A stretch of DNA of 64,000 nt, taken from contig JAHDHI010000015.1 in NCBI GenBank assembly GCA_020631395.1, positions 1 to 64,000 on the forward strand. Direction: 5' to 3'. Under the pieces are notes generated by a model that searched no databases, had not been told where the DNA came from, and worked only from the letters and a program-made list of their open reading frames with translations. The DNA comes from Bizionia sp. GTDB lineage: Bacteria; Bacteroidota; Bacteroidia; Flavobacteriales; Flavobacteriaceae. The translations under genes and the position numbers were made by a program. Of this stretch, positions 20,814 through 39,858 are shown in pieces; the first letter of the stretch is position 1; the number at the start of each line of letters is the position of its first letter.

Positions 20814-20956
20814 TTAACAAGCAAATTGTGAAAGCTCATTTACATTGACTTATTCAACATCCAGTCAAATACAAAAAACGCTTTCTTCAAAATATTAAAA
20901 TCGACATCTACGAAAAAACAGGTATAAATACCTGAAAAAAAACAAAGGGAAACCAA

Positions 20957-20964
20957 TAAATTTG
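20957..20964 (+). promoter_or_regulatory. Candidate operon promoter -7 element (TAAATTTG)
   Basis: TAAATTTG is the only full TAnnTTTG match found close upstream of the multicopper oxidase gene and lies 130 bases before its ATG. A small hairpin (CAGGTA 20919-20924 with TACCTG 20929-20934) sits just upstream of it and could be an operator. No -33 TTTG is visible, so this is tentative. Confidence 0.4.
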
Positions 20965-21093
20965 TGTTAAAGGCCTTTTTAAGAAAACATTAACACCGTT
21001 AAATCTTTTATGGCCAATAGATTAAAGCTCATCTTCCCTAAATAGCGCTTTTACAATCTCTAGATAGAAAACCTTTGCTTAATCTTTATAAAA

Positions 21094-24000
21094 ATGAAAA
21101 CTTATTCTACGATTACTTCAATTAAATCTTCCCTTGTCTTTCTAAAAACAGTTTCTCTAATGCTATTCCTAGGAACAACGACATCTAGTGAAGCTCAGAC
21201 GGCAACGAAAGACACTGTCTATGTTAATATGGCTGCCATCAACCAGCCTTTCATGTACAACCGTCTGGGTGCTGCACAACCTACAGGGATGATCTTTGCA
21301 CTTGTTCGCGACTTGGACACGGCTATTCCCGAAAGCATACCTAATGCTCTTTTAGGCAAAGTCCGTTTAAGAAAGAACAAACGTCCAAGACCAATAGTGT
21401 TGAGAGCCAACGTTGGGGATGTATTAAAGATAAAGTTTACAAATCTATTGGCTCCATACGATAGCCTTGCACCCGTAAATGCGTACAATACCAATAAGCC
21501 AGGTACGATTAGTCAAAGTGTTGCTGCCGCTAATAGCAATCCCAATCTCGGCCCCACAGCAAGTGTGTACCCAAAAACCAGACATGCCGGAGTTCACATT
21601 CTAGGAACAGAAATGGCAGAAAGCATAAATGACGATGGCAGTTATGCCGGATTTAATAGTTCTAGTCTAGTAGGGCCCGGAAAAACCATAACCTACACAT
21701 TGAATGTCCCTAAAGAAGGAGTCTACATGCTATACAGTACCGGGGCAACCGTTGCAAATGGTGGGCAAAAGGGAGGACAATTGAGCAATGGTCTATTTGG
21801 AACATTGAATGTTCAACCAAAAGGAGCTGAATGGTATCGAAGTCAGGTTTCAGAAGCCGATTTGGACCAAACTATTACGCACTATCAAAAAATGGGATCA
21901 ACAGCACCTTTGGCCAAGAGTGAAGTTCCCAATATTTACAATACCAATAATATATTTCCTGTTATCGATTATGATGCCGTTAAAGCAGATGGGACACCCA
22001 TACTAAAAATGTATCGGGAGTATCCAAGGAGACCAAATTACAAAGAACTGATATACACTGATCTTACAGCTATAATCACTGGCCCCAATAGAGGGAACTT
22101 TACAGGAGAAAGTCCTTCGTTTTTTAAGGTTCCTGCCTCTCCAGATAGAAGACGACCATACAGAGAGTTTGCAATAGACTACCATGAATCTCCATGGACG
22201 GTACAGGCATTTCCTGTTTCATATATCAGTGACATAAACAAGTCTCAAATTAATCTAACCGGTACATTGGCTACTGGTAATGACAACTTTTCCATCAATT
22301 ATGGATCTGGAGCCATTGGAGCAGAAATATATGCCAATAGAATAGGAGTTGGACCAATGGCTGATTGCGATGACTGTGCCTATGAAGAGTTCTTTTTAAG
22401 CTCATGGTCCGTAGGTGACCCAGCAATGGTGGTAGACGTCCCTGCAAATGCATCAAGTCCCAATACTGTGAACGAAACACTTCAAAATCAATTTTTAAGA
22501 CAACAAGGTTCCAGTGACGCTGCGAATTTGGCACCTCAACTAGGATTCAAAGCAAAAAAAGCCATATATCCCGATGATCCTTCCAATGTATACCATAGTT
22601 ACATGAACGACCATGTCAAATTCAGAATTACCCATACAGGTGCTGGTCTAACCCATGTACACCATCAACATGCACATCAATGGCTGCATTCTCCAAATAG
22701 CGATGAAGGGCATTACTTGGATAGTCAAACGATAAACCCAGGATCTTCCTATACATTGGAAATGGTGTACGACGGAAGTGGCAATTTAAACAAAACTGTT
22801 GGAGATCAAATCTTTCACTGTCATTTCTATCCTCACTTCGCAGCAGGTATGTGGGCATTGTGGAGAGTACACGACGTATTGGAATTGGGAACAAAGACAG
22901 ATTCTAGAACGGGTATCGCAGCAACAAACTCTAGAGCCCTACCAGATGGTGAAATTGCAAATGGTACTCCAATTCCAGGTTTGGTACCCATACCAAAACG
23001 AGCAATGGCTCCAGTACCTTCCAAAATACATATAGAAGAAGGTCAAATTGTAGTGGACGATGACTCTAGAAATCCTGGATTTCCATTCTTCATTCCGGGA
23101 TTATCTGGTAGTAGAGCACCACACCCTCCAATGGATTTTGCGGTCGGTGACATCTATGATGACAATGGCGAAATAATAAAAAGGAATCAACCTTTAGATG
23201 GCGGACTTCCTAGAAATGTAGTTTACAAAGCTAAAGTTCCTTTTGAAAATCATACGCAATACGATTGGACGAAAATAGTAGATAGCATACAAGTCATAGA
23301 ATTACCAAATGATGGAACAGCAATTGAAAAGGTTGCCATGGCAGCACATGCCATACGAAAACATAAGACCCTGACACCTGAAGGGTTAATCCCTAGAAAT
23401 TCAAAAGGTGTTAGAGAGTATTTTTTATTAAATGGATTACCTCCAGTACCTGGAGCCCCTTATGCAGATCCCGCTGTTAACCTTGAAGGCGATTCCGTAG
23501 GCACTAAAAGGACATACAAGGCTGCAAACATTCAATTGGATGTTGTATTGAATAAAAAAGGTTGGCACTACCCGCAGCAACGAATCATTTCCTTGTGGGG
23601 AGATGTAAATGCCAACATAGAAGGCATCAAACCTCCGGAACCATTTTATTTTAGAGCTCAGTCCAAAGAATACGTTGAATACTGGCATACCAACTTAGTG
23701 CCAGAATATTATGAATTAGATGACTTTCAAGTACGAACACCAACAGATATCATTGGACAACACATTCACTTGGTGAAATTTGATGTCACCTCTTCTGATG
23801 GGGCTGCAAATGGATTCAACTATGAAGATGGAACATTGGCTCCAGACCTTGTAAGAGAACGTATCAATGCGATCAACGATGGCGGAAAACGTTATACTTA
23901 CAAATACACAAACGGAAAATCCATAGCAGATGTAAGCAATTATGCTGTTAACAATAACTTATTAAAACCTCATGCTCCAAATCCTGTTTGGGGTGATGCG

Positions 24001-26754
24001 CCAGAAGGCCAAAATTGGACTGGAGCACAAACAACCATCCAAAGATGGTATTCAGATCCTTTATTGAATAACAGAGGTGAAGACAGAACATTGAGAACTG
24101 TATTTACACATGACCATTTTGGTCCATCTACACATCAACAAATTGGACTTTATGCAGGATTGTTGATAGAACCTGAAAACTCTACTTGGTATGACCCCGC
24201 TACTGGAGACCAACTAAGCAAAGCCAATAACGGAGCAACACGTTCTGTAACTGTTGATGGGGTATCCAGAACTGTAAGTGATGGAGGGCCTACAAGCTGG
24301 CAAGCCAATATTGTATTGAACGACAACATAGAAGAAAGCTATAGGGAATTCATGTTGGAATTTCAAGATACACAACAAGCCTATTTACCAGGCAGTAAAT
24401 CGAAACTAGATCCTTATCCAGAATTCCCAGAAAACTTTACTGGGATCGATTCTATAAATTTTGTTACGGCTGCGAATAACTATAGAGGATGGATGGATCC
24501 AGACAATGCCATACACAACAATGGATATCCAGAATTGATTTCATTTGGTTTCAGAGGCACGTATTCCATGAATTATAGAAATGAACCGCTTCCATTGAGA
24601 GCTTCGAAAGATAGTTCTAGTGTCTATACGCAAGCTTCTGGGGCTGCAGGCAACCTATCCAATGTCTTTAGTTCAAAAATAAATCGCGCAGACAATGTTT
24701 TTAATACGCAACCCGTTGGTGGATCCTACATCCCAGGAAACGACACCTTTACTTTCCCCATAAATCCCTTAGGGCCAGACATGCAACCAACTGACCCTTA
24801 TACACCATTGTTTAGAGCATACGAAAATGATAAGATACAAATTAGAACATTGGTTGGGGCTCATGTTACTTCTCATTTTTTCAACGTACATGGTGTGAAT
24901 TGGTTGTTTGAACCTTCTTTTGAAAATTCAGGATTGCGCTCTACACAAAATATGAGTCTTTCGGAACATTTTGAAATGAATTTCCGTTTTCCGGTAACCA
25001 AAAGCACAAGTCCCTCAACAGATTATTTATATCAGGCCAGTGCAGACGCAGCAGGATTACAAGCTGGTCTATGGGGAATGATGCGAGCCTACAATACCAA
25101 ACAACCAAATTTATTGCCATTGCCCAATAATGATGTTGACAAAAACCCAATAGCCAATCTACCTAAGAATTGTGGTTGCCCAACAGGTCCAGATGTACCT
25201 AAAAGAACATTCTATGTTACTGCATTTTCAATAGATCAATTGGGCGGGAATTTAATTTACAATGAAAAATATGGAAATAAGGAAGATGACGCGATAGTGT
25301 TTATAGGTAGTGAAAATAAGCTAAGTGAAACAGAAACGAAAAAACTCTGGAAAGGTGAACCATTGGTGTTAAGAGCCAATGCTGGAGATTGCATTACTGT
25401 TCATTTAACAAATGCCATTAATAAACATAAAACCAATCCTGGAGTTTACGACTATCGGAGTGCAGCAGCTACTGCTGCAAAAGACAGTATTAACATGGTA
25501 CAGTTAAAAGTATCATCAGATATTGGTTTGCATGCCGAATTACTATCTTATGACGTTAGCAAGTATGACGGTACAAATGTAGGTTTTAACACACCACAAA
25601 CCGTAAGTATTGGAGAAACAAAATCTTACGAATGGTATGCTGGCAAATGGGAAAACAACAGGCCTGTTCCCGTAGAGTTCGGTTCTGTCGTACTATCCTC
25701 CTCCGATCGTTTGGAACAGTATGTAAAAGGTCTTTTTGGAGCCCTTATCATAGAGCCTCGAGGAGCAACTTGGAAAGTAGATGAAAATCTCAATCAATCT
25801 GCAAACATTTACGATGAAAACAAAAATCTGTTGTTTCGTGAATTTGTATTCCAATTTCAAGATAACATAACGGCAGCCTCCACAAACTCAGCCAATGCGA
25901 CTGTTAATTATGCGATTAACTATAAATCGGAACCTTTGGCAAACCTAAGAAAAGATGTTTCTCTAAATTTCAACCAAAACGACATATCGAACATCAATTC
26001 GGTGACCGCCAATGGAGGAACTTATCCAGAAACACCACATTTCATAGCAAAAGCTGGAATGCCTTTACGTTTACGACTATTGCATCCAGGTGGTCTAGGA
26101 GGTGGTGAAACCTTCACACTACATGGACATTCATGGCAAGAAGAGCCCTATAAATACGATTCTACCGTATTGGGGCATAATGAAAAATCACAACAATTTG
26201 GATTTAGAGATCAACTAGGGCCACTTAATAGTTTCGACTTGTTAATTGATAGTGCAGGTGGTAGAAACAACGTTACTGGAGATTATTTGTATAACGACAT
26301 GGTAAACCTAGGATTCCAAGGTGGTGTTTGGGGAATAATGACCGTAAACAATGGGACTTCACAAATTACGGTAAGTGACATCAAGATAAATCCCATTTCT
26401 CAAAGAGAATGGATAATTACGGTTCAAGGCAAAGCTAGCGTGAATCCTGTAACAGGTAAATTACCCAAGGCCATTGTCATAGAAGGAGACAATGGAAGAG
26501 TTGTCGTAAACAAAGATGGTACATGGACAATTTTTGAACTTGCAATGATAATCGACAAGCAAACTGAAGGGCTTACGCTTACTACTGCCGATGGAGGCAA
26601 TTTAAGCCTTAGCCTAGAACAAATCAAACAAATTTCAGAAGCATCTTCTTCAAAACTTCCAACGAAAACTGTAAAAAGCATGCAGAAGGAACAACCAATT
26701 ACCCAAGAAACCAAACCACAACGTGTGGAAGGTCAAAAAGTCAATATGAATTAA
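21094..26754 (+). CDS. Giant multi-cupredoxin multicopper oxidase (MnxG/McoA-like)
   Basis: This exported protein has 1886 residues, about three to four times a laccase, with a signal peptide ending near SSEAQ (residue 35). The copper motifs are intact but in an unusual order. HxxHxH lies in HVHHQHAHQW (521-530), then HCHFYPHFAAGM (575-586) with type 1 and type 3 ligands; further on come HIHL (890-893) and HDHFGPSTHQQ (1006-1016). A second block from about residue 1359 repeats the N-terminal start (LRANAGDCITVHLTN versus LRANVGDVLKIKFTN) and holds FTLHGHSW near 1674. Giant oxidases of this kind include Mn(II) oxidases; the substrate here is unknown. It is the first gene of the operon, 13 bases before the next start. 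Confidence 0.85.
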   Translation: MKTYSTITSIKSSLVFLKTVSLMLFLGTTTSSEAQTATKDTVYVNMAAINQPFMYNRLGAAQPTGMIFALVRDLDTAIPESIPNALLGKVRLRKNKRPRPIVLRANVGDVLKIKFTNLLAPYDSLAPVNAYNTNKPGTISQSVAAANSNPNLGPTASVYPKTRHAGVHILGTEMAESINDDGSYAGFNSSSLVGPGKTITYTLNVPKEGVYMLYSTGATVANGGQKGGQLSNGLFGTLNVQPKGAEWYRSQVSEADLDQTITHYQKMGSTAPLAKSEVPNIYNTNNIFPVIDYDAVKADGTPILKMYREYPRRPNYKELIYTDLTAIITGPNRGNFTGESPSFFKVPASPDRRRPYREFAIDYHESPWTVQAFPVSYISDINKSQINLTGTLATGNDNFSINYGSGAIGAEIYANRIGVGPMADCDDCAYEEFFLSSWSVGDPAMVVDVPANASSPNTVNETLQNQFLRQQGSSDAANLAPQLGFKAKKAIYPDDPSNVYHSYMNDHVKFRITHTGAGLTHVHHQHAHQWLHSPNSDEGHYLDSQTINPGSSYTLEMVYDGSGNLNKTVGDQIFHCHFYPHFAAGMWALWRVHDVLELGTKTDSRTGIAATNSRALPDGEIANGTPIPGLVPIPKRAMAPVPSKIHIEEGQIVVDDDSRNPGFPFFIPGLSGSRAPHPPMDFAVGDIYDDNGEIIKRNQPLDGGLPRNVVYKAKVPFENHTQYDWTKIVDSIQVIELPNDGTAIEKVAMAAHAIRKHKTLTPEGLIPRNSKGVREYFLLNGLPPVPGAPYADPAVNLEGDSVGTKRTYKAANIQLDVVLNKKGWHYPQQRIISLWGDVNANIEGIKPPEPFYFRAQSKEYVEYWHTNLVPEYYELDDFQVRTPTDIIGQHIHLVKFDVTSSDGAANGFNYEDGTLAPDLVRERINAINDGGKRYTYKYTNGKSIADVSNYAVNNNLLKPHAPNPVWGDAPEGQNWTGAQTTIQRWYSDPLLNNRGEDRTLRTVFTHDHFGPSTHQQIGLYAGLLIEPENSTWYDPATGDQLSKANNGATRSVTVDGVSRTVSDGGPTSWQANIVLNDNIEESYREFMLEFQDTQQAYLPGSKSKLDPYPEFPENFTGIDSINFVTAANNYRGWMDPDNAIHNNGYPELISFGFRGTYSMNYRNEPLPLRASKDSSSVYTQASGAAGNLSNVFSSKINRADNVFNTQPVGGSYIPGNDTFTFPINPLGPDMQPTDPYTPLFRAYENDKIQIRTLVGAHVTSHFFNVHGVNWLFEPSFENSGLRSTQNMSLSEHFEMNFRFPVTKSTSPSTDYLYQASADAAGLQAGLWGMMRAYNTKQPNLLPLPNNDVDKNPIANLPKNCGCPTGPDVPKRTFYVTAFSIDQLGGNLIYNEKYGNKEDDAIVFIGSENKLSETETKKLWKGEPLVLRANAGDCITVHLTNAINKHKTNPGVYDYRSAAATAAKDSINMVQLKVSSDIGLHAELLSYDVSKYDGTNVGFNTPQTVSIGETKSYEWYAGKWENNRPVPVEFGSVVLSSSDRLEQYVKGLFGALIIEPRGATWKVDENLNQSANIYDENKNLLFREFVFQFQDNITAASTNSANATVNYAINYKSEPLANLRKDVSLNFNQNDISNINSVTANGGTYPETPHFIAKAGMPLRLRLLHPGGLGGGETFTLHGHSWQEEPYKYDSTVLGHNEKSQQFGFRDQLGPLNSFDLLIDSAGGRNNVTGDYLYNDMVNLGFQGGVWGIMTVNNGTSQITVSDIKINPISQREWIITVQGKASVNPVTGKLPKAIVIEGDNGRVVVNKDGTWTIFELAMIIDKQTEGLTLTTADGGNLSLSLEQIKQISEASSSKLPTKTVKSMQKEQPITQETKPQRVEGQKVNMN

Positions 26755-26767
26755 CCCCTATCTTATT

Positions 26768-28687
26768 TTGAATTCATTTAAATACATAATCCTTTGTTGT
26801 TGTTTTTCCTTGCTAATGTTCACGCAAGGAAAAGCGCAACAGGGCTATCACAAATCCGTCATAAAAGAAGGCATCAAAATCGATTTTACCATTTCTCACA
26901 TAGACACCAACAAGTCAGAGCGCGCATTCAAAGAAGGTGACGATGTCCTATTTCGTTTCAAAATAAAGGATACTTTATCCAACAAACCATTAACTGGGGC
27001 ATTTCCAGCAGCGTGGATGGATAAAATCAACCCCAACTTAAACGTTTCATGTGGAAAAAAAATAGTCTCTTACATTGAAGGTGGGTTTCAATCCCGTCCA
27101 GAATTGGACCTCAACAAGTACTATGTATTAACATTAAACCATGACAACACCATCAATGTCGTAGATCCATTGTTTGGTTATGGTGGTTCTCAATTGCTTG
27201 CCCAAATACAATTAAAAGGCTCTGGTTATGATTGGGCCATCAAAGAAGATCAATCATTAGTTTGTGTATCAATTCCAGAGGCCGGCGAATTGGCCTTCAT
27301 TGACACATCCGACATGACTATTGAAAGTACTGTGGCCGTTCCTGGGAAACCCAAGGAACTGATCTTTCAAAATGACGAACACTACTTGTGGGTTACCTAT
27401 GAGCCATTAGGACGTTTTGAGGCTACATCTGGTGTATCAATAATAAATACAAACACAAAAACGCTGGTAAAAAACATTGAAACAGGCAAAGGCGCTCATG
27501 ACATTGTGATGGATCAACAAAACAATGTAGTATTTGTATCCAATAAAAATGATGGTACCGTTACTGTTGTTGATTTAAAGACGCTTGAGAAAAAGAAAGA
27601 CATTGGCATTGACGGAACCCCCATTGCGATGGGATTTTCTAAAAAAGCAAATGCCCTATATGTCATTAACAAAGAAGAGTCGACCATATATGTTATTAAT
27701 GGTAATACAGCCAGCATCATTGATAAGATTCCTTGTGTCAATGGTATCAATAAAATTGAATTTACCCCAAATGGCAGGTTGGCATTCATAGCCAACCCAA
27801 AGGACAATACAATATTAATTCTTGATAGCTCGTCAAATACCATCATACAACAAGCCGATGTGGAGAATCACCCGGATGAAATAAGTTTTTCAGATGAATT
27901 GGTCTACATAAGACACCTGAAAAGTGATACCGTTTGGATGATCCCATTGGATATCATTGGAACAAAAGATGGAGCGGTTTCACTCATAGATTTCAGTGGA
28001 GGCCAAAACCCTCCTGCATTAGGTAGTGAAACATGTGGTGCCAAAGGCATTGTTCAAGCTCCAGGAGCCAACGCCGTTTTGGTTTCCAACTATTTGGACA
28101 ATTCCATTTATTATTATACAGAAGGCATGGCTGCTCCTAGTGGTCATTTTAGTACATATGGTAAGAAACCCAAGGCTGTATTGGCTGTAGACAAGAGTAT
28201 AGAAGAAGTTGCTTTGGGTACTTACGAAACCACTGCAAAATTGCGTACACCTGGAGACTATGACATTAGTCTGTTTTTAGACACACCTTCTTTCATGGAA
28301 TGTTTTCCCATTACCATTTTACCCGATGAAGACAAAGAAAAAGAGCGATTGAACAAACTCATTGGCCCTTTGTCCATAAAATACCTAACACAAAAATCAT
28401 TGGCTTCGGTAGGAGAAGAAGTAACCGTAACATTTGAACTCATGGATTCCAAAACCAAGGAAACCGTTACCAATTTAAAAGATGTTCGGTTAATGACCAT
28501 GGATAGCTTTGGGAAGGGAAATAGCAATGTCGTTGCCAAGGAGACCGAAACGAAGGGAGTCTACTCCACCAAATTGACACTTGAAGACGAAGGCGTTCAT
28601 TATGTCTACATAGAGTGCAACTCAAGGGGCTTGAGTTTTAACAATCCTCAATTCTTAGTGCTACACGCATCAAAAAAAATAAAATAA
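26768..28687 (+). CDS. Secreted YVTN/YncE-type beta-propeller protein
   Basis: This 639-residue exported protein has a signal peptide ending GKAQ. From about residue 110 to 480 it has repeats of the YVTN type (VDPLFG, VSNKNDGTVTVVDLKTLE, LYVINKEESTIYVING, AFIANPKDNTILILD), a seven-bladed propeller pattern. The last 115 residues resemble a YtkA/FixH-like Ig domain (VGEEVTVTFELMDSKTKE). The start is TTG, needed to include the signal peptide. Proteins of this type sit beside copper oxidases and cytochromes and may serve as a periplasmic docking or electron-transfer partner; that role is inferred from position only. Confidence 0.8.
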   Translation: MNSFKYIILCCCFSLLMFTQGKAQQGYHKSVIKEGIKIDFTISHIDTNKSERAFKEGDDVLFRFKIKDTLSNKPLTGAFPAAWMDKINPNLNVSCGKKIVSYIEGGFQSRPELDLNKYYVLTLNHDNTINVVDPLFGYGGSQLLAQIQLKGSGYDWAIKEDQSLVCVSIPEAGELAFIDTSDMTIESTVAVPGKPKELIFQNDEHYLWVTYEPLGRFEATSGVSIINTNTKTLVKNIETGKGAHDIVMDQQNNVVFVSNKNDGTVTVVDLKTLEKKKDIGIDGTPIAMGFSKKANALYVINKEESTIYVINGNTASIIDKIPCVNGINKIEFTPNGRLAFIANPKDNTILILDSSSNTIIQQADVENHPDEISFSDELVYIRHLKSDTVWMIPLDIIGTKDGAVSLIDFSGGQNPPALGSETCGAKGIVQAPGANAVLVSNYLDNSIYYYTEGMAAPSGHFSTYGKKPKAVLAVDKSIEEVALGTYETTAKLRTPGDYDISLFLDTPSFMECFPITILPDEDKEKERLNKLIGPLSIKYLTQKSLASVGEEVTVTFELMDSKTKETVTNLKDVRLMTMDSFGKGNSNVVAKETETKGVYSTKLTLEDEGVHYVYIECNSRGLSFNNPQFLVLHASKKIK

Positions 28688-28693
28688 TCAACT

Positions 28694-29824
28694 ATGAAAA
28701 CTACCAAAGATTCAATTCTCATTTTAACATTGTTACTATTGTTTCAAGTTACTTTCTCTCAAACAAAAAAAGCGGCATGTTGTGCCACCAAAGCAGAAAC
28801 GTGTGAAAGCGCAGAAAGTTTTTCTTTAGGGGAAATGAAAGACATTCCCAATGTATCTCTCATAAATCAACATGGAGAAGATGTTAAGTTTTATGATCTC
28901 ATAAAAGGTAAAGTAGTAGCACTAAACTTCATATTTACAAGTTGCAAAACGATTTGTCCTCCAATGGGTGCCAACTTTGCCAATCTTAAAAAAAGGATGG
29001 AAAAAAGAGTAAAGAGCTCTGAATTGGTCATGTTAACCATTAGCATAGACCCTGTAACAGATACTCCTGAGCGTTTAAAGGCTTGGAGCAAAAAATTTGA
29101 AGCAGGAGAAGGTTGGACATTGCTCACTGGAAAAAGCAAAGACATTAATACCCTACTTAAAAAATTGGAAGTGTACACAGCATTGAAAGAAGAGCATGCA
29201 CCAATAATATTGTTAGGAAAAGAAGGCTCCAACGAATGGGTTAGGACAAATGGCCTTGCAGATGTAAAAGAGCTCTCCAATACCCTAGAAACATTCTTTG
29301 ACAAGAAAGTGAGCAACGTTGCGCCAAAAATCAATAGAGATGAACAGTATTTTACAAATGTCGTATTGACCAATCAGTTGGGGGAAGACAAACGTTTGTA
29401 CAAGGATTTGATGGAAGGCAAAATTGTCATTATAAACCCTTTCTTTTCTGAATGCACGGGGGTGTGTCCAGTCATGAGTTCCAACTTGAAAAAAATTCAA
29501 GAACATCTGGGTGACAAATTGGGAAAAGAAGTCAACATATTGTCCTTGACAGTCGATCATGAAACGGACAACAAAAAGATATTGAGCGAATATGCCAAAA
29601 AATACGATGCAAGAAATGGATGGCATTTTCTCACTGGAGAAAAAGAAAACATTGAGCTTGCCTTGAAAAAACTAGGAAAGCACGTTGACAATAGAGAAGC
29701 TCATGACGCCATATTCCTAATAGGGAATCTAAATACCAAACTATGGAAAAAAGTAAATGGTTTGGCCAATGTAAATGACATTATCAGCCAAATTGATAGC
29801 GTCATCAACGATTCAGTTAATTAA
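28694..29824 (+). CDS. Tandem SCO1/SenC-family copper chaperone or thiol-redox protein
   Basis: This 376-residue exported protein contains two SCO thioredoxin-like domains in one chain. The first has CKTIC (Cys84, Cys88) and a later His in EEHAPI; the second has CTGVC (Cys254, Cys258) and His in EAHDAIF. The CxxxC plus distal His set is the copper site of SCO proteins, which load copper into cytochrome oxidase CuA or reduce its thiols. The mature N-terminus has an extra CC-x5-C cluster (residues 27-35). Six bases separate it from the propeller gene. Its likely client is the multicopper oxidase. Confidence 0.85.
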   Translation: MKTTKDSILILTLLLLFQVTFSQTKKAACCATKAETCESAESFSLGEMKDIPNVSLINQHGEDVKFYDLIKGKVVALNFIFTSCKTICPPMGANFANLKKRMEKRVKSSELVMLTISIDPVTDTPERLKAWSKKFEAGEGWTLLTGKSKDINTLLKKLEVYTALKEEHAPIILLGKEGSNEWVRTNGLADVKELSNTLETFFDKKVSNVAPKINRDEQYFTNVVLTNQLGEDKRLYKDLMEGKIVIINPFFSECTGVCPVMSSNLKKIQEHLGDKLGKEVNILSLTVDHETDNKKILSEYAKKYDARNGWHFLTGEKENIELALKKLGKHVDNREAHDAIFLIGNLNTKLWKKVNGLANVNDIISQIDSVINDSVN

Positions 29825-29833
29825 CACCCATTC

Positions 29834-31363: not shown

Positions 31364-32810
31364 AAAAGTCAAAATAGTAACCTCAATTTCCAATCAGAAG
31401 GCATTGACACGACTTCCGGACATTGTTGACCTAGTTGAAGTAAGAGGAGATCTAATGGAACTTTCAACATTAAAGAGAGAACTTACAGACAAACCATTGA
31501 TTTATGTCCTAAGAAGCAAAGAAGAAGGCGGAACTTTTGCCGGCTCTCCAAATGACAGAACAAAAAAACTCCTAAACGCTGTCAAGGCATTCGATTTTAT
31601 TGAATTGGAGGGTGAGCGCGATCTAATTCCTGAAATACTTGATCATGTTCCTGTTGAAAAACGCAGAATTGCTTGGTATGGCTACTATGAGGATTACCAG
31701 ACATTGAAGCTACGATTGGAAAAGTACATACAAGTTAAAGCCAGTCTCTATAAACTGGTCGTACACGCTAAAAGTCACAAGGAAACAATAGCAGCAACTC
31801 GCTTGATCCAATCTTTTGAAGATAGTCCAGTCCTTTCGTATGCCATTGGTCCATTTTCAAAATGGTCGCAGGTCATTGCTCCATTCTTAGGTGCCCCGGA
31901 AGTACCATCGACCATAAACAACGAAACGACCGATACTCTTTTATATACACCCAGTCAATTAAACGAAACATTTGGCCTTCCCCATGTCTACGATCTGCAA
32001 AACGTATTTGGAATAGTCGGCAACCCGGTAGCCAATTCAATATCACCAAATCTTCACAACGAAGCATATCGTAAATTAAACCTGCCGTACCTCTATTTAC
32101 CCTTTCATGCAGAGCATTTCAGGGATTTTATGGAAGAAAGCATTGGAAACACGTCCTTTCCCATCTCGATATCCGGGCTAACAGTTGTTTCTCCGTTTAA
32201 ACGAGATGGCTATGCTTTTTCAGATCAAATCAATGCCAAAGGCTGTTTAATTGCCAAAGTTTGCAATGGCCTTGTTAAAATCGAAAACAATTGGAAAAGT
32301 TTTAGCACGGATGCATCTGGCGCCTTGGAAGCTTTGAGCAATGTTGAAAACTGGGACAGAAAAAGAATTGCCATTGTAGGTATTGGCGGTACGGGACAAA
32401 CCATAGCCACAGCATTGGAAAAACTCAACGTATCTGTTACCCTCGTTAATAGAACCATAGAGAATGCCAAGAGAACAGCCAATGTCTTAGGCTTGCCATT
32501 TCTTCCTTTACATGAGTTCAAACCCCGTTTTTTCGACATCATAATACACACCACTCCTCTTGGCAAAAATAGAGGGGAAATACCCTTTGACCTGACACAA
32601 CTAACCCATACGAATCTTGTTATAGACCATGTCTACCCCAAACAAGACAAAACGGAACTCGTTAAACACTGTGAGCTATTCAACATAAAGGTCATAGATG
32701 GTAAAGACATTGCCAGAATGCAAATCAAGAAACAATTTAAAGCCATGACTGGAATTAAATATCCAGAAAACTTGGCGATCGAAGAACTATACAAATTAAA
32801 AGTGAACTAG
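31356..32810 (+). CDS. AroD-AroE-like fusion (type I dehydroquinase + shikimate dehydrogenase), divergent
   Basis: This 484-residue protein has two domains. Residues 1-210 match type I 3-dehydroquinate dehydratase: EVRGD (Glu28, Arg30), LRSKEEGGTF and the Schiff-base Lys in LYKLVV (Lys133). The catalytic His expected in the (N/Y)HD(F) strand is Gly109 (AWYGYYED). Residues 225-484 match shikimate dehydrogenase: GNPVANSISP, the catalytic Lys in VVSPFKRD, the Asp in FSTDASG, dinucleotide loop GIGGTGQT and HTTPLG. The plant-like fusion order and altered active site suggest a dedicated pathway rather than chorismate supply. ATG 31356 overlaps the previous stop, a sign of translational coupling. 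Confidence 0.78.
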   Translation: MNRKVKIVTSISNQKALTRLPDIVDLVEVRGDLMELSTLKRELTDKPLIYVLRSKEEGGTFAGSPNDRTKKLLNAVKAFDFIELEGERDLIPEILDHVPVEKRRIAWYGYYEDYQTLKLRLEKYIQVKASLYKLVVHAKSHKETIAATRLIQSFEDSPVLSYAIGPFSKWSQVIAPFLGAPEVPSTINNETTDTLLYTPSQLNETFGLPHVYDLQNVFGIVGNPVANSISPNLHNEAYRKLNLPYLYLPFHAEHFRDFMEESIGNTSFPISISGLTVVSPFKRDGYAFSDQINAKGCLIAKVCNGLVKIENNWKSFSTDASGALEALSNVENWDRKRIAIVGIGGTGQTIATALEKLNVSVTLVNRTIENAKRTANVLGLPFLPLHEFKPRFFDIIIHTTPLGKNRGEIPFDLTQLTHTNLVIDHVYPKQDKTELVKHCELFNIKVIDGKDIARMQIKKQFKAMTGIKYPENLAIEELYKLKVN

Positions 32811-33227
32811 ATGCAAACAACAAACTTAGCCTATTCAAAGAAAGATGACATCATTTCCGAATTTTATCATGAATGGGGTACAAACATGGAAACGCTCTTG
32901 GGTGAGTGGAAGAACGTAAATCCCAAGACAGGTCAGATTTCCCGTGTGGAAATCTTATCAAAAGAAGGTGATACATTCCTGCATTGTCATGGAAAGGTAG
33001 ACGATGGAGAGCAAGATTGGGGTGAGACACCATGTGAATTATTTAGTGACAATGTGGGATCTCCCACCATTGAAGGGTTTATGGCCTCTTACAATTTAGG
33101 CTTTGTACAAATTGAAATCGTCGGCAACATCAAATATGGAGTCATGGTCGTTCAGTCTTACAATACTTTTAAGGACGGGAGCAACCGTAACAACTACATT
33201 GCTCGCGAATTCTTTTGTAAAAAATAA
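32811..33227 (+). CDS. Small DWG-motif lipocalin-like protein, copy 1
   Basis: This 138-residue cytoplasmic protein has LLGEWKNVNPKTGQISRVEI, an HGK...QDWGE segment, a GFMASYNLGF middle and the end F-x-DGSNRNNYIAREFF. The run from GxW through DWGE to FxDGSxRxxY is that of a small, uncharacterised beta-rich family with a lipocalin-like outline. The ATG directly abuts the AroDE stop; an internal Met at 32886 would trim 25 residues. The following gene is a distant copy. A ligand-carrier or small enzyme role is possible but unproven. Confidence 0.6.
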   Translation: MQTTNLAYSKKDDIISEFYHEWGTNMETLLGEWKNVNPKTGQISRVEILSKEGDTFLHCHGKVDDGEQDWGETPCELFSDNVGSPTIEGFMASYNLGFVQIEIVGNIKYGVMVVQSYNTFKDGSNRNNYIAREFFCKK

Positions 33228-33245
33228 CAATTAACCAGAACCAAC

Positions 33246-33623
33246 ATGAAAATAGCTGAACAAAAAAGCATTGCAGATCTTTCATACTACACCGGAACAT
33301 GGATAAACTCATACGATAAGGCGAGGGTCATTGCGTCGCTTACCATTACCGAAAAGGATGAAAAAATAGAAATCACCCTCAAAAACTCTGAAACTGGATT
33401 CTATAGCGGAGAATGGGGATCCAGTGAATTGAAGCCACACGCCTACGCTCCCGACATAAATGACATTGTTGCGTTTCAAGCCCGTTTCGACTTAGACGAC
33501 ATGGATGCCTTTTTGGCAATAAATGAAAACAAAGGGTTATTGATTATTGCCGGGTACTTTAGTTTCAAGCCATCAGATAACAGATCGGATTGTTTCGTTC
33601 GTGAATTCTTTTATAAAATATGA
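33246..33623 (+). CDS. Small DWG-motif lipocalin-like protein, copy 2 (diverged)
   Basis: This 125-residue protein resembles the preceding gene in outline: YTGTWINSYDKARVIASLTI at the start, GEWGSSELKPHAYAP in place of the DWGE segment, and CFVREFFYKI matching IAREFFCKK at the end. The central loop is more diverged. The pair probably arose by tandem duplication. Its TGA overlaps the ATG of the flavoenzyme gene by four bases, pointing to coupled translation. Confidence 0.6.
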   Translation: MKIAEQKSIADLSYYTGTWINSYDKARVIASLTITEKDEKIEITLKNSETGFYSGEWGSSELKPHAYAPDINDIVAFQARFDLDDMDAFLAINENKGLLIIAGYFSFKPSDNRSDCFVREFFYKI

Positions 33624-34819
33624 TAGCACAAGAATTAAAAATAAATCTAAACGATAGCTTGGCAAGGTTAAAGACATTAACCAAAGAACACTTTGTGTCC
33701 AGAGCCAAGCATTATGATGCCACGTATGGTTTTCCCAAGGAAAATTTTGAGGACTTGTTTTCCGAAGGACTTCTGGCTCCAACCGTTTCTGAAGAATATG
33801 GAGGTCTTGGTTTGGGAAACAACAAAAAGAACATACGTTACCTATGGGCAATGACAACAGAGATCGCCAAAGCCGACATGGCTACCGCACGTTGTTGGGA
33901 AGGACATAACAACGCTTTAATGCTAATAGACAATCTTGGGAATTCAAGTCAGAAAGAACGATGGTTTTCTGGGGTAATGAACAAAGGGGACATTTGGTCC
34001 GTTTGGAGTGGAGAGCCCTTGTTGAAAACTCCAAATCAAAAAGTAACATTAGGCACAAACGTGACCAAGACAGACAAAGGCTATATTTTAAATGGTTCCA
34101 AAGTGTTTTGCTCAAGTGCACCAGGAGCATCTTGGGCCAATCTATTGGTTAACACTGCTGGTATTGGTGGAGCACGCCATGCCAATGGCTCTCCCGAATC
34201 GCTTATCATGTTGGCTTGTGAGCTTTCAGACCCATCCGTCTCGTTCGACGACTCTTGGTGGAAACCCATTGGCATGCGCGGCTCGGTAAGCTATTTGGTA
34301 CGTTTTGACAATACCTTCATTCCGTTTGAAAACCAGATAGGAAGTCCAGGGGAGTTTTTATCGAACGATTGGCAGACCAGATGGATCCCACAATACGCTG
34401 CAACATTTTTGGGAGGTGCCGAGGCTGCCTACGAATACACCTTGTCACACATCAAAAGCCAGAAAAGGGAAAATGATCCTTTCATTCAACATAGAATCGC
34501 TAAAATGGTCATTAACATCAAATCTGCCCATATGTGGTTGGACCACGTAGCCAAGCTCTGGGACAAAGGAAACGTAAACGAGGCAAAATCTTCTGGAAAC
34601 ATAGTACGCTATCAGGTCGAACAATTGGCCACAGACACGATAAACCATGCTGTACATGCCTGCGGAGCAAGAGGGTTGATACAACCCAGTAGCCTAGAAC
34701 GCATTGTAAGAGACCTTACACTTTATACACGACACGACAATGATGACCAATTATTGGCCACCATAGGGAAATCCATTTTAGGAGAAAAACACGATTGTTC
34801 ATTTTTTAATCCACAATAG
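33620..34819 (+). CDS. Acyl-CoA dehydrogenase-fold flavoenzyme (possibly a group D monooxygenase)
   Basis: This 399-residue protein has the three-part acyl-CoA dehydrogenase fold: an N-terminal helical domain with SEEYGGLGLG, a beta domain with GYILNGSKVFCSSAPGA, DDSWWKPIGMRGS and FDNTFIP, and a C-terminal helical bundle. The usual Glu base of the dehydrogenases is not evident. The C-terminal helix reads RDLTLYTRHDNDDQ (His372), closer to the DszC/FMNH2-dependent monooxygenase arrangement. Such monooxygenases need a separate flavin reductase, and one is encoded at the end of this operon. A plain acyl-CoA dehydrogenase remains possible. Confidence 0.72.
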   Translation: MIAQELKINLNDSLARLKTLTKEHFVSRAKHYDATYGFPKENFEDLFSEGLLAPTVSEEYGGLGLGNNKKNIRYLWAMTTEIAKADMATARCWEGHNNALMLIDNLGNSSQKERWFSGVMNKGDIWSVWSGEPLLKTPNQKVTLGTNVTKTDKGYILNGSKVFCSSAPGASWANLLVNTAGIGGARHANGSPESLIMLACELSDPSVSFDDSWWKPIGMRGSVSYLVRFDNTFIPFENQIGSPGEFLSNDWQTRWIPQYAATFLGGAEAAYEYTLSHIKSQKRENDPFIQHRIAKMVINIKSAHMWLDHVAKLWDKGNVNEAKSSGNIVRYQVEQLATDTINHAVHACGARGLIQPSSLERIVRDLTLYTRHDNDDQLLATIGKSILGEKHDCSFFNPQ

Positions 34820-34823
34820 AATC

Positions 34824-36326
34824 ATGAAGATACTCGGCAAAACAAAACGACTTGGCATTTGGGTCTTGGCTTTAGGCTACTTTGCCTTCTATGTGCCATA
34901 CAGCGGCATGACCAAAAGCCTTTCAAAAGGACTATTCTCAGAGAAGGGAACCATAATCTCGGGGTTTGAAATGCTCCCTATCGTACTCTTGGGAACCGTT
35001 ATGGGCTTTTTTGCCATATTGCTAATTACCGGATGGTGGAAGCTAGCAGGAACCATTTCCTTTTTTGGCCTAAAAATTCCGTTTGCTTCAAACAAGCATA
35101 CCTTCTTTTCTGGTGTCGCCACCGCCATCATCATTGCAACCACTACTCTAGCCTATAGTTTTACAGGTATTTCAATTGTTTTTGCTGCACTATTAATGAG
35201 AGGAGGTGTTTTGATTATGGCTCCCTTCATAGACACTTTGTATCGTAGAAGAATCCAATGGTATTCTTGGTTGGCCTTTGGTCTGACGCTATTCTCCCTA
35301 TTAATCGTTTTTTCCGAAAAAATCGGGTTTACGTTGAATTCGGCAGCCATCATAAACATAACGGCCTATCTTACCGGATATTTTTTCCGACTACAGTTCA
35401 TTACCTACAAGGCAAAAACAAATGACAATTCTAGCAATAAAACCTATTTCATCGAAGAAATGATCTCTGCCATGACCATAATACTGGTAGTTCCTCCCCT
35501 ACTGGCATTGATTGGTCAAGGAGAACTCATGTTGTCTCTAAGAAATGGCTATACCAGTTTTCTATCATCAGGACTGATCATACCGACATTATCCATAGGA
35601 CTATTGTATTCCTGCCTCTACATATTTGGTTCTAGGATATATCTCAATCATAGAGAAAATACGTTTTGCATTCCCATAAACAGATGTGCCAGTCTATTGG
35701 CTGGAGTAACAAGTGCCATACTGTTGTCTTTTATTTTTGAAAGGCAATTCTTTACCAATACGCAACTCATAGGAGCAGTTATGCTGGTATTGGCAATATT
35801 CTCATTGAATACTCCAAAGATCATTGAAGCCATCAAACAAAGCATCATCGAAGAACAGCGTACCTACATTTTTGTCTGTCCGGGCAATACGGGAAGATCT
35901 CCAATGGCACAAGCCATATGCATGGATAAGATGATGGTTCATTACAATGCAAATAGAAGAAGGAAAAGAAAACTGAACATTGAAATATTGAGTGCTGCCA
36001 TATCCGGAGAAGAAGGAATCCCCATACAAACCAATGCTTTATATGCCTTGAAAGAACTGAAATACAATTCCATTAGTCATAGTTCGAACCCCATGTCCAA
36101 CATAGATATAGAAAGCGCCAATAAAATATTGTGCATGTCTTCGGAACACAAGCAAGAAATCATTCGAAAATTCCCAGAAGCAAAAGACAAGGTCTATGCA
36201 CTGGATACCGAAAGCATTATTCCCATTCCGCATGGAAAAGGAAAAAAAGCATATATAGAATGTGCCAAGAAACTAGAATTAGTCATAGATCAATTAATCA
36301 ACAAGAATGAAATAGCATTTTCATAA
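34824..36326 (+). CDS. Multi-span transporter (EamA/DMT-like) fused to a low-molecular-weight phosphatase domain
   Basis: Residues 1-335 hold about ten hydrophobic segments in two halves, like drug/metabolite (EamA) transporters. Residues 345-490 are a low-molecular-weight protein tyrosine phosphatase fold: the P-loop VCPGNTGRSPMAQA has the nucleophile Cys352 and Arg358 (CX5R-S). The general-acid loop, normally (I/V)PDP, reads IIPIPHGKG, so the catalytic Asp seems to be missing. This fusion is unusual. It could export a phosphorylated or dephosphorylated product, or the domain may sense arsenate or phosphate-like ligands. It starts four bases after the flavoenzyme gene. Confidence 0.7.
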   Translation: MKILGKTKRLGIWVLALGYFAFYVPYSGMTKSLSKGLFSEKGTIISGFEMLPIVLLGTVMGFFAILLITGWWKLAGTISFFGLKIPFASNKHTFFSGVATAIIIATTTLAYSFTGISIVFAALLMRGGVLIMAPFIDTLYRRRIQWYSWLAFGLTLFSLLIVFSEKIGFTLNSAAIINITAYLTGYFFRLQFITYKAKTNDNSSNKTYFIEEMISAMTIILVVPPLLALIGQGELMLSLRNGYTSFLSSGLIIPTLSIGLLYSCLYIFGSRIYLNHRENTFCIPINRCASLLAGVTSAILLSFIFERQFFTNTQLIGAVMLVLAIFSLNTPKIIEAIKQSIIEEQRTYIFVCPGNTGRSPMAQAICMDKMMVHYNANRRRKRKLNIEILSAAISGEEGIPIQTNALYALKELKYNSISHSSNPMSNIDIESANKILCMSSEHKQEIIRKFPEAKDKVYALDTESIIPIPHGKGKKAYIECAKKLELVIDQLINKNEIAFS

Positions 36327-36371
36327 CAAACGACACCAAAAGCCATAGCATTAATGCCATTACATAACACC

Positions 36372-37154
36372 ATGAATCAAACTACCGTCAATTGCAATAC
36401 ATTCAGAACCGAAGGTGTGATGTTTCCCATTCCCATTTTTTCGAAAAAAGAAGTCCTCAGTCACAAGGCTGAATTTGAACTTATGGAAAAGGCATTCAAT
36501 GGTAAGCTGCCCTATGCTGGAAACTTGCATTTTTCATTGTTGTGGGCCTATGAGCTATCCACACATCCCAAAATACTGGACTTCATAACACCTATTCTTG
36601 GTGATGACATTAGCGTTGTAGGCACATTGATGCTAACCAAATACCCTAAAACCGACAACTACGTATCATGGCATCAGGATGGTATGAATTCCAAATGGGA
36701 TCAAAACAATTCGTTAACGGCTTGGTTGGCTTTGACCAATAGCAATGCTGGAAACGGATGCATGCAGGTGATTCCCAAAAGCCATGAAAACCTATTGCAA
36801 GAACACGTATACTTTACAGATCAAAAAAATATGATTAGAAAGGGGCATAGGATAGCCACAAATGTCAATGAGGAGGAAGCGCTCGATTTAGAGTTACGAT
36901 CTGGCGAAATGTCCATTCATCACAATAGCATCATACATGGATCCAAACCCAATGCATCGTTGCAAAAAAGAATTGGCTTCATCATAAGGTACATCAATAC
37001 GAAATACGTAAACCCGGGAACTTCCGTCATTTATGCCAAAGGGAATACGAAATACGACCACCTTAACAAGATAGACAAACCTGATGCCTTTGGATTGAAA
37101 CACAGTCCTGAAGCGTACAAGGATTTCTTAACTCAAAACATTGTCATAAAATGA
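36372..37154 (+). CDS. PhyH-family Fe(II)/2-oxoglutarate dioxygenase
   Basis: This 260-residue enzyme has the complete facial triad of the phytanoyl-CoA dioxygenase family: WHQDG (His101, Asp103) and the distal His189 in IIHGSKPN, followed by KRIGFIIRY, whose Arg would hold 2-oxoglutarate. Because the carboxylate Asp is kept it should hydroxylate rather than halogenate. The segment SLTAWLALTNSNAGNGCMQVIPKSH is typical of natural-product family members. An upstream ATG at 36354 would add six residues. The 3' end overlaps the GT4 gene by four bases. The substrate is unknown. Confidence 0.82.
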   Translation: MNQTTVNCNTFRTEGVMFPIPIFSKKEVLSHKAEFELMEKAFNGKLPYAGNLHFSLLWAYELSTHPKILDFITPILGDDISVVGTLMLTKYPKTDNYVSWHQDGMNSKWDQNNSLTAWLALTNSNAGNGCMQVIPKSHENLLQEHVYFTDQKNMIRKGHRIATNVNEEEALDLELRSGEMSIHHNSIIHGSKPNASLQKRIGFIIRYINTKYVNPGTSVIYAKGNTKYDHLNKIDKPDAFGLKHSPEAYKDFLTQNIVIK

Positions 37155-38122
37155 AAATTCTATTGTCATGCAATCACGAATACCCTTCATATAGATTTCA
37201 CGGATCTGGAACGAAAACAACGACCTATCCTTCGGGATCCAGTCATCATCAACATGATTTGCTAGCTAGGGGCCTGGCCGAAAAAGGACATGAAGTCCAT
37301 TATCATGTAAATCATTCTAGCCATACCATTTCAGACAAAGGTGTCCATCTCGTAAAAGAACTTGTAGACGATGTTGACATCGTACACTTGAATGCTAGAG
37401 TTAATGAAGAATTCCATACCCATTACAAAGCAAGGAACATTCCCGTCATTGCCACCAATCATTTGTACGTAGCCAATGAGCAGCCACCCTTCAAATGGGT
37501 TCATGTATCGAAAACCATGGCAGACCTGTATGATGAAAAGCATTTTGTATGGTGTGGGTTGGATCCCAATCATTACATATATTCAGAGAAAAAAGACGAT
37601 TATTATTTGTTCATCGCCAATATTGGCAAACACTTGGAAAAAGGATTGGATATAGCACTCAAAACTACCAAAGCGCTAAACAAGAAACTAGTTGTAGCAG
37701 GGTCCAGTCAAAATCCTTCAGACATAGCCATGGTTCAAAACCTATGCAATGAATTCAATGCAATCTACGTTGGTGACACACGTGGAATTGAAAAAGCAAA
37801 GATACTAACCAACGCCAAAGCCCTTATTTCCCCTTCCAAATTACCCGAAACCTTTGGCATTACCCTAATTGAAGCCTTGTTTTCAGGAACTCCAGTAATT
37901 TGTAGCAACAATGGCGCCTATGGTGAAATCATGACAAAGGATGTTGGCTTTGTCTGTAAGACGGAATCCGACTATGCAAATGCCTTCAAAAACATAGACG
38001 GCATAAGACCACGCACGTGCAGATCGTATGCCCTAAACAATTTTCATTATTTGAAAACGACTGAAAAATACATTGAAATCTATAATGAAATTTTAATGCC
38101 AAAAGCACTAATAAACCTTTGA
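37151..38122 (+). CDS. GT4 family glycosyltransferase
   Basis: This 323-residue GT-B enzyme has an N-terminal acceptor domain starting MKILLSCNHEYPSYRF, with an SGSSHHQHDLLARGLAEKGHEV helix after it. The C-terminal nucleotide-sugar domain has FIANIGKHLEKGLD, ALISPSKLPETFGITLIEAL (the E-x7-E pattern) and GTPVICSNNGAYGEI. It should transfer a sugar to an acceptor made by the preceding enzymes. It overlaps the dioxygenase gene by four bases and abuts the next gene directly, so co-expression is very likely. Confidence 0.82.
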   Translation: MKILLSCNHEYPSYRFHGSGTKTTTYPSGSSHHQHDLLARGLAEKGHEVHYHVNHSSHTISDKGVHLVKELVDDVDIVHLNARVNEEFHTHYKARNIPVIATNHLYVANEQPPFKWVHVSKTMADLYDEKHFVWCGLDPNHYIYSEKKDDYYLFIANIGKHLEKGLDIALKTTKALNKKLVVAGSSQNPSDIAMVQNLCNEFNAIYVGDTRGIEKAKILTNAKALISPSKLPETFGITLIEALFSGTPVICSNNGAYGEIMTKDVGFVCKTESDYANAFKNIDGIRPRTCRSYALNNFHYLKTTEKYIEIYNEILMPKALINL

Positions 38123-39019
38123 ATGAGAACAAAACCCACAGTATTGGAAGGTACCATGGAAGACATTTGGTCCATAAGAATATATCGTGGCGAATCTCCA
38201 TTGAAAATAGACACTTCAAAAAATGCATTCGTGGCTTCCATAACCAAAGACGACGTCACAGACATTCCAGCATCATTCGTAGCAGATCCATTCATGATCC
38301 ACTTTGAAGAAAAGTGGTATCTATTCATGGAAATCATGAATGCTGAAACCGAAATCGGTGAAATAGGTTTGGTAACAAGTGTCGATGGAACAAAATGGGA
38401 ATATCAACAAGTAGTTCTCAAAGAGGATTATCATTTGTCCTACCCTTTCATATTCAGACACAATGAAGTGTTCTATATGATTCAAGAAACTCTAAATGCA
38501 AATGCCATTCGTTTATATAAAGCTCGAAATTTCCCATATGACTGGGAATACCAAACAGATCTCATAAAAGGCAAATATGCAGATCCAACACTTTTTCAAC
38601 ATGACGACAAATGGTGGATGTTCACCTATAGCTTTGAATTGGGCAATCTAAACTTGTTTTCTTCAAATGATTTAATTGGTCCATATACAGAGCATCATAA
38701 AAGTCCATTGATAATAAAAAACAAAAGAACAACTAGGCCTGCGGGCAAGGTAATCAATGACAACGATAGACTCATCCGTTTATGTCAAGATGGCTATCCC
38801 AAGTATGGTTCTAGTGTAAGGGCATTTGAGATTACCAAGTTAACACAATCCGATTATAGAGAGGTAGAATTATCTGAAAGTCCTGTTTTACAAAAATCCG
38901 AAGAAAAAAATCAATGGAACAGCAATGGGATGCATCATTTGGATTCCCATAAGATCACGTCTAACAAATGGCTTGTATGTGTAGACGGATGCTATTCCGA
39001 TATTTTAAATAGAATATGA
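38123..39019 (+). CDS. GINT1-N/GH43-like five-blade propeller protein
   Basis: This 298-residue protein matches the N-terminal domain of glucosamine inositolphosphorylceramide transferase (GINT1). It has ADPFMIHFEEKWYLFME, GLVTSVDGTKWE, HLSYPFIFRHNEVFYMIQE, FPYDWEYQTDLIKGKYADPTLF, KWWMFTYS, TRPAGKVI and LCQDGYPKYGSSV. This is a five-bladed propeller like the GH43 glycosidases. Bacterial copies sit in polysaccharide and natural-product gene groups and their activity is not settled. It begins one base after the GT4 stop, so a joint role in sugar transfer is plausible. Confidence 0.72.
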   Translation: MRTKPTVLEGTMEDIWSIRIYRGESPLKIDTSKNAFVASITKDDVTDIPASFVADPFMIHFEEKWYLFMEIMNAETEIGEIGLVTSVDGTKWEYQQVVLKEDYHLSYPFIFRHNEVFYMIQETLNANAIRLYKARNFPYDWEYQTDLIKGKYADPTLFQHDDKWWMFTYSFELGNLNLFSSNDLIGPYTEHHKSPLIIKNKRTTRPAGKVINDNDRLIRLCQDGYPKYGSSVRAFEITKLTQSDYREVELSESPVLQKSEEKNQWNSNGMHHLDSHKITSNKWLVCVDGCYSDILNRI

Positions 39020-39570
39020 AAAACAAAAAAATAGTCATACTATCCGGATCCATAAGAAATGGAAGAAAGACGCATGCCATTGCTGAATGTGTAACGCGCC
39101 AATTAAAATCAATGGAGAACGTTGCTGCCAATCTCATTGATTTGAAAACCGTACGATTGCCTTTGTTTGAACAGATCATTGACAATGAAGCACTCTACCC
39201 GGACAATTTGAAGGCATTTAGCGCTGAAATTGTAAATGCAGACGGCATTATCATAGTTTGCCCTGAATACAAAAATAGCATTCCAGGGGTTTTAAAAAAT
39301 GCATTGGATTACCTTAAACCGCAAATATTCAAACACAAACCCATAGGCAACATTACTGTAGCCTCCAATGATTTTGGAGGTTTGAATTGCTTGGCACATT
39401 TAAGGTTGGTTGGCTTGGCCATGGGCGGTTTACCCATTCCTGAAAAATGTTGCATCTCGAACGTCAATGGGCTCTTTACCCCAGAAAACATTTTGGATGA
39501 GCATTTAATTGCAGAAAAGATCGCTACTTTTTTAGACGCTTTTTTGTGGTATGTCAATCGCGTGTCTTGA
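39016..39570 (+). CDS. NAD(P)H-dependent FMN reductase
   Basis: This 184-residue flavodoxin-fold protein begins IVILSGSIRNGRKTHAIAE (FMN phosphate loop GSxR) and has CPEYKNSIPGVLKNALDYL, the usual flavin/dimer contact of the NADPH-dependent FMN reductase family. It is the last gene of the operon and overlaps the propeller gene by four bases. It could supply FMNH2 to the acyl-CoA-dehydrogenase-fold enzyme at 33620. Confidence 0.85.
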   Translation: MKNKKIVILSGSIRNGRKTHAIAECVTRQLKSMENVAANLIDLKTVRLPLFEQIIDNEALYPDNLKAFSAEIVNADGIIIVCPEYKNSIPGVLKNALDYLKPQIFKHKPIGNITVASNDFGGLNCLAHLRLVGLAMGGLPIPEKCCISNVNGLFTPENILDEHLIAEKIATFLDAFLWYVNRVS

Positions 39571-39587
39571 CAACAAAAACATATAAA

Positions 39588-39720
39588 TGAAAATAATAGC
39601 TTTCTTCGTCAAAAAGAATTAAACCCATGTTTCATTCAAAAATTAAAAACAGATCAACATTAGGTAAACATTGAGGAATCAAATATTGAATGAACCCTTA
39701 CAGACATTGGCATAGCATTT
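39588..39720 (+). pseudogene. Decayed promoter and 5' end of a second miaE
   Basis: This stretch aligns with 41098-41240, the promoter and start of intact miaE. Shared blocks include ATAATA, CTT-GTC, AATTAAA, CCATG-TTCATT and GGTAAACAT, in the same order with only one- or two-base gaps. The matching ATG is at 39627, but the frame stops after 15 codons and the similarity fades past about 39730. It begins 18 bases after the operon's last stop. It is read as a broken duplicate and marks the right border of the operon insertion. Confidence 0.65.
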
Positions 39721-39828
39721 CAAAAGTCGTGAAATTGAATGGTTTTTCGTAGTAAAGCAAAAAACGCATTGAAATTTGGGTTTTGATTGAAAATTCAAGC
39801 TATTGCATATAGCCATTTCATACCACAA

Positions 39829-39858
39829 AAAAGCTCAACCATGATCAAGGTCGAGCTT
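39829..39858 (-). terminator. Terminator behind the DUF2911 gene
   Basis: On the minus strand AAGCTC-x-ACC pairs with GGT-x-GAGCTT and a run of six T follows. It lies 33 bases past the stop at 39891. Confidence 0.75.

Follow-up and report, generated by a model that had tools for sequence, protein, structure and literature searches.

Does the giant multicopper oxidase module that shares an operon with a putative glycosylation-bearing pathway in Bizionia sp. also share a function with it? The locus lies within 64,000 nucleotides (positions 1 to 64,000) of the forward strand of contig JAHDHI010000015.1 (assembly GCA_020631395.1), here called the window, and its features are collected in Table 1. 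Thirteen ORFs occupy 18,477 bp (~18.5 kb) of the + strand at 21094-39570, in agreement with the 13-gene, one-strand operon of the initial annotation. With ATG 31356 taken as the AroDE start, the 12 junctions measure, in gene order, +13, +6, +9, -8, 0, +18, -4, +4, +27, -4, 0 and -4 bases. The tight packing proposed earlier was confirmed for the two junctions without a gap, for the lack of any gap above about 45 bases (the largest is 27) and for the 8-base overlap of the cytochrome and AroDE genes; the five overlaps proposed were reduced to four (8, 4, 4 and 4 bases). The + strand shows no terminator-like site near 31300-31400, and a promoter of the Bacteroidota type (TTG-N17-23-TAnnTTTG) was not found on it anywhere between 20500 and 39700. 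The intergenic region that precedes gene 1 holds a single -7-like element, TAAATTTG. The operon lies between housekeeping genes: recG precedes it, and DUF2911, miaE and further genes come after it. The family assigned to each gene held; the two DWG proteins matched no Pfam family. Since the gene order is conserved in nine other genomes, chance is excluded as the source of the operon.

Table 1. Features of the operon and its surroundings (positions in the window)
Feature	Coordinates	Strand	Basis
-7-like element of Bacteroidota promoters, TAAATTTG	20957..20964	+	weak; matching -33 TTG absent
19.2-kb block missing as one unit in same-genus genome G747	20622..39829	.	alignment of L100
Gene 1, MnxG-family giant multicopper oxidase, 1886 aa, exported	21094..26754	+	NF041487, PDB 9bxa matches
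Gene 2, exported YVTN/YncE-type beta-propeller, C-terminal YtkA-like domain, TTG start	26768..28687	+	family match
Gene 3, double SCO1/SenC, two CxxxC copper sites (CKTIC 84, CTGVC 254)	28694..29824	+	family match, motifs
Gene 4, exported cytochrome c (CMNCH) fused to Peripla_BP_6 binding domain	29834..31363	+	family match, motif
Gene 5, AroD-AroE-like fusion, overlaps gene 4 by 8 bases	31356..32810	+	family match, alignment to 2gpt
Gene 6, DWG1, predicted 8-stranded avidin-like barrel, cytoplasmic	32811..33227	+	AlphaFold2 model, structural alignment
Gene 7, DWG2, paralogue of gene 6	33246..33623	+	sequence comparison
Gene 8, acyl-CoA-dehydrogenase-fold flavoenzyme (ACAD), RHDN where DszC has LHDP	33620..34819	+	family match, alignment
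Gene 9, multi-spanning transporter (DMT) fused to LMW phosphatase domain (LMWP)	34824..36326	+	family match, motifs
Gene 10, PhyH Fe(II)/2-oxoglutarate dioxygenase, cassette	36354..37154	+	family match
Gene 11, GT4 glycosyltransferase, cassette	37151..38122	+	family match
Gene 12, GINT1_N / GH43-like protein, cassette	38123..39019	+	family match
Gene 13, NADPH-dependent FMN reductase	39016..39570	+	family match

The first half of the operon proved to be familiar. Gene 1 matched the MnxG equivalog model NF041487 with 1076 bits, under its curated cut-off of 3100, and the MnxG structure PDB 9bxa with 2.7e-91. The MnxG homology spans the whole length of the protein, in which copper motifs of the HCHxxxHxxxxM and HxH types are present, including HVHHQH (521), HCHFYPHFAAGM (575), HIH (890) and HDH (1006); HCHFYPHF and HIH motifs are common to the non-FCB MnxG loci checked. 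Judged by these matches, gene 1 is a full-length MnxG relative of the manganese-oxidising type. In Pseudomonas putida GB-1, the mnxG operon consists of mnxG, a YVTN propeller, two SCO genes, a cytochrome c/ABC substrate-binding protein and SurA (PMC11409713, Table 4). Genes 1-4 match this set in identity and order, with the two separate SCO genes of Pseudomonas fused into one (PMC11409713), while SurA is missing and a nine-gene pathway is added at the 3' side. The same four-gene order is shown by most MnxG relatives with enough flanking sequence, in Pseudomonadota, Nitrospirota and Thermodesulfobacteriota. The proposal that this half is a new oxidase module was therefore rejected, as it corresponds to a known operon whose order recurs across phyla. 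By contrast, the second half, the pathway, is undescribed in the literature searchable here; searches on MnxG with Bacteroidota genera and on the gene set returned nothing relevant.

When one genome per species was scanned, 50 MnxG relatives were recovered. In Bacteroidota and Chlorobiota, all eight scanned MnxG loci (a Kordia MAG, three Aquimarina, a Flavobacteriaceae MAG, Aureisphaera galaxeae, a Saprospiraceae MAG and a Chlorobiota MAG) run directly into AroDE-DWG1-DWG2-ACAD-DMT/LMWP. The pathway was found beside MnxG at 0 of 42 loci in other phyla, and DWG was found in none of the 41 genomes of non-FCB MnxG bearers searched throughout; the DWG query used for those genomes later matched the positives G586, G832 and G587. 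A blind search of Saprospirales with a DWG alignment recovered the known genome and G832, whose contig holds the joined operon. Taking together the window, the eight scanned loci and G832, the two halves are joined in 10/10 Bacteroidota/Chlorobiota examples, in the order MnxG-propeller-SCO-cyt/PBP-AroDE-DWG1-DWG2-ACAD-DMT/LMWP, and the joins persist down to 32-35% AroDE identity. Of 199 Flavobacteriaceae genomes sampled, two have MnxG, and these same two have AroDE. The gene 8 flavoenzyme is present in 3 of 397, where the third bearer is a Kordia-type MAG.

All pathway bearers fall into a single clade of the MnxG tree (SH-aLRT 100), with 1 change against 8.4 in shuffles. Pairwise identities of MnxG correlate with those of AroDE (Mantel r 0.96, 0/20,000 permutations) and of ACAD (r 0.96, 11/20,000). 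In the same-genus genome G747, the flanks of L100 align to window positions 18297-20621 (91%) and 39830-48667 (88%), with 303 bases between them, so that in place of the whole block recG and the DUF2911 gene are separated by ~300 bp. The absence of the block as one piece, the co-divergence and the ten joins together indicate that the unit is inherited, gained and lost as one. As part of our best explanation as a whole, to which we give an even chance, a single acquisition would have brought the pathway to the ancestors of the Bacteroidota/Chlorobiota MnxG branch. The expectation that the two halves always occur together was thus borne out within this clade; halves found mostly apart, or a promoter or terminator at their junction, had been named as grounds against it, and neither was found there.

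Joint inheritance does not in itself require a joint function. The link between oxidase and pathway is weakened by other phyla, where MnxG functions in the absence of the pathway, and by the possibility that a common operon reflects no more than common regulation. The halves might accordingly be functionally independent, tied together only by their regulation or by being carried on one mobile island, and the behaviour of the block as one island in G747 fits this explanation. We nevertheless consider it unlikely in view of the unbroken series of joins, their constant order down to the lowest AroDE identities and the parallel divergence of MnxG and pathway; further observations on both sides come from genomes that carry DWG away from MnxG and are given below.

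A shikimate-derived product had been suggested by the initial annotation. Gene 5 and nine homologues were aligned to the Arabidopsis dehydroquinate dehydratase-shikimate dehydrogenase (2gpt). The two-domain layout of the plant and bacterial bifunctional enzymes is retained, and the dehydrogenase residues Ser, Lys, Asn, Asp and Gln are kept in 10/10. The gene 5 family differs in its dehydratase half, where the catalytic His is lost in all ten proteins (replaced by Gly or Leu, with WYG in gene 5) and the Schiff-base Lys, kept in gene 5 and in 8/10 overall, is Gln in L016 and Arg in L053. Only the shikimate-dehydrogenase-like half looks active from these residues, and gene 5 is best read as a reductase or dehydrogenase with a first domain that is repurposed or dead. 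With the catalytic histidine of the AroD half missing throughout, the idea of a product derived from shikimate is weak and unproven. Gene 5 was also considered as the housekeeping AroE, which was ruled out by a separate AroE-like gene in the genome (24% identity) and by the degenerate dehydratase half.

The AlphaFold2 model of DWG1 is an eight-stranded up-down barrel (pLDDT 85), and it aligned to avidin with Z 10.3 and an rmsd of 3.2 over 106 residues, at 12% identity. A Foldseek search with the model gave nothing below 1e-3 (best 4e-3), and a PDB sequence search with DWG1 returned matches at chance level only, avidin not among them. The predicted eight-stranded barrel is shared with avidin and calycin barrels, from which the DWG proteins differ in being always encoded in pairs, in being cytoplasmic and in their low sequence identity. 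A second DWG pair was observed elsewhere in the Saprospiraceae genome G586, which bears a joined operon (L093, contig C25, 8000-25642). This pair adjoins GT4, two PhyH-like, GT2-like and YdjC-like proteins, and no multicopper oxidase; it is possibly a spin-off pathway.

Gene 8 resembles the structures of DszC and MsuC, and its Z scores are tied between monooxygenases and dehydrogenases (ColB1 35.2, 5gj7 34.8, MCAD 34.5, DszC 34.1). This tie, by which structure does not separate an oxygenase from a dehydrogenase, counts against the explanation favoured below. Its RHDN motif near the C terminus, kept in 8/8, aligned to LHDP of the FMN-dependent monooxygenase TdsC; acyl-CoA dehydrogenases have YEG at the position of HD in DszC. 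The acyl-CoA-dehydrogenase fold occurs in group D flavin monooxygenases, which are reductase-dependent (PMC10696468). From its motif, gene 8 is a probable two-component monooxygenase, for which gene 13 would supply the reductase. The FMN reductase closes the operon in 7/7 flavobacterial examples read to the end, despite their differing cassettes. An ACAD-fold enzyme, a luciferase-like enzyme and an FMN reductase are also found together in the two-component sulfonate/sulfinate sets (MsuC/MsuD/MsuE, DszC, SfnB). The present operons add AroDE-like and DWG proteins, glycosyltransferases and an exporter, a company that points to synthesis rather than sulfur scavenging. Gene 9 keeps the P-loop as CPGNTGRS, and a P-loop is present in 10/10 of the proteins compared (CNGNTARS in the Chlorobiota protein); its DP acid motif is replaced by IPIPH, and DP is gone in most homologues. 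The phosphatase domain may therefore serve phosphate binding or transfer rather than hydrolysis.

When the other genomes were read to the operon end, a constant core and a variable cassette were distinguished. The core comprises AroDE, DWG1, DWG2, ACAD and the transporter-phosphatase, joined in the seven flavobacteria by the terminal FMN reductase, and the cassette draws on an MptE-like protein, two luciferase-like monooxygenases, PhyH (0-2 copies), GT4, GT2, GINT1, Capsule_synth, a methyltransferase and further glycosyltransferase-like proteins. The fullest flavobacterial cassette is that of the Kordia MAG, whereas the MptE-like gene and the luciferase-like pair have been lost from the window operon. 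Such a composition would fit a common scaffold with strain-specific hydroxylation and glycosylation. A frame break, which may be an assembly error, divides the GINT1-like gene of the Kordia MAG (L068 7587-8457). Proteins of 457-466 aa without a Pfam match end the cassette in the Saprospiraceae (L073 11486-12859) and Chlorobiota (L074 12993-14393) operons. In the Saprospiraceae MAG, only the cytochrome half of the gene 4 counterpart, 163 aa in length, precedes AroDE (L016 18984-19472), and a full cytochrome/binding-protein fusion sits after the cassette (L073 15406-16977).

The variable cassette also allows a reading in which metal oxide is templated or anchored by a glycan that the pathway synthesises or alters, be it on the surface, exported, part of a glycolipid or attached to the oxidase, with the oxygenases as glycan-tailoring enzymes. 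Its GT2/GT4, glycosyltransferase-like, Capsule_synth and GINT1 genes vary between genomes as surface-glycan loci do, and DMT-type carriers and LMW phosphatases occur in polysaccharide systems. However, the core holds no polymerase, Wzx-type flippase or initiating phosphoglycosyl transferase, and the invariant dehydrogenase, flavoenzyme, FMN reductase and barrel proteins suit small-molecule chemistry better, so that we regard a glycan product as rather doubtful. The product is probably an oxygenated, glycosylated and exported molecule.

Among 72,556 plasmids, DWG or a close gene 8 relative was found only in those of Gloeothece verrucosa PCC 7822 and Nostoc sp. UHCC 0926; the search for AroDE among the plasmids gave ordinary aroE genes only. 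The Gloeothece cluster (NC_014533.1, about 200-223 kb) shares with the present operons ACAD (56% identity), FMN reductase (44%), the luciferase-like enzyme (44%), GT4 (39%), DWG, of which it has four, and a multicopper oxidase. It differs in lacking AroDE and MnxG, in having genes on both strands and an ABC exporter, and in the addition of a methyltransferase and an SDR. The Gloeothece multicopper oxidase is different from MnxG and carries an RR-type export signal. This is apparently an independent association of the pathway chemistry with a multicopper oxidase, seen in one genome. It is mainly this case, in which pathway genes surround another oxidase, that favours a functional link over mere co-regulation and argues further against independent halves. 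In Nostoc, the flavoenzyme and the DWG pair lie far apart, and no such oxidase was seen nearby. Like the second Saprospiraceae cluster, Nostoc holds DWG without MnxG, which agrees with independence; the restriction of the Gloeothece arrangement to one genome and the separation of ACAD and DWG in Nostoc both weaken the link between oxidase and pathway. The Nostoc DWG pair is located on plasmid NZ_CP117772.1 (L081 16898-17704) among nitrogenase-like genes, and the flavoenzyme (L080) adjoins Fe-siderophore-type ABC genes and a condensation-domain protein.

The occurrence of laccase-type as well as MnxG-type multicopper oxidases with the pathway could also mean that a phenolic or other organic product is polymerised by the oxidase into a pigment or sheath, metal oxidation being secondary. 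The oxygenases could add the hydroxyls, but there is no evident aromatic-ring-forming enzyme and the dehydratase half of AroDE is degenerate, and we judge this outcome improbable.

The reading we favour, at roughly even chances, is that the operon combines an mnxG-type metal-oxidase operon with a dedicated pathway whose product is a ligand or co-substrate of the oxidase; the evidence suggests that the module serves the oxidase, and the product is best read as an exported glycoconjugate oxidised or used by it. In the cytoplasm, the dehydrogenase half of AroDE, the DWG1/DWG2 pair and an FMNH2-fed ACAD-fold oxygenase would build an oxygenated scaffold, an intermediate of which the avidin-fold pair may bind or cyclise. 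PhyH and/or the luciferase-like enzymes would hydroxylate the scaffold, glycosyltransferases would decorate it strain-specifically, and the transporter-phosphatase fusion would export the molecule. Beyond the inner membrane, the MnxG complex, which would receive copper from SCO and be wired through cytochrome c, might oxidise the molecule itself or the Mn(II) or Cu(I) bound to it. We put forward more tentatively, as a possibility, that a glycosylated ligand or mediator is made for the MnxG-class metal oxidase, and that the avidin-fold pair and the FMNH2-dependent oxygenases form a new core common to Bacteroidota, with MnxG, and cyanobacteria, with another oxidase.

The reason for the giant size of manganese-oxidising enzymes, and their handling of Mn(III) and of their copper centres, are still debated. 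The core of paired avidin-fold proteins and a flavoenzyme is undescribed, and family-based annotation misses it because the DWG proteins have no Pfam match. A pathway inherited with the oxidase through the whole depth of this rare branch provides a genetic handle on manganese oxidation.
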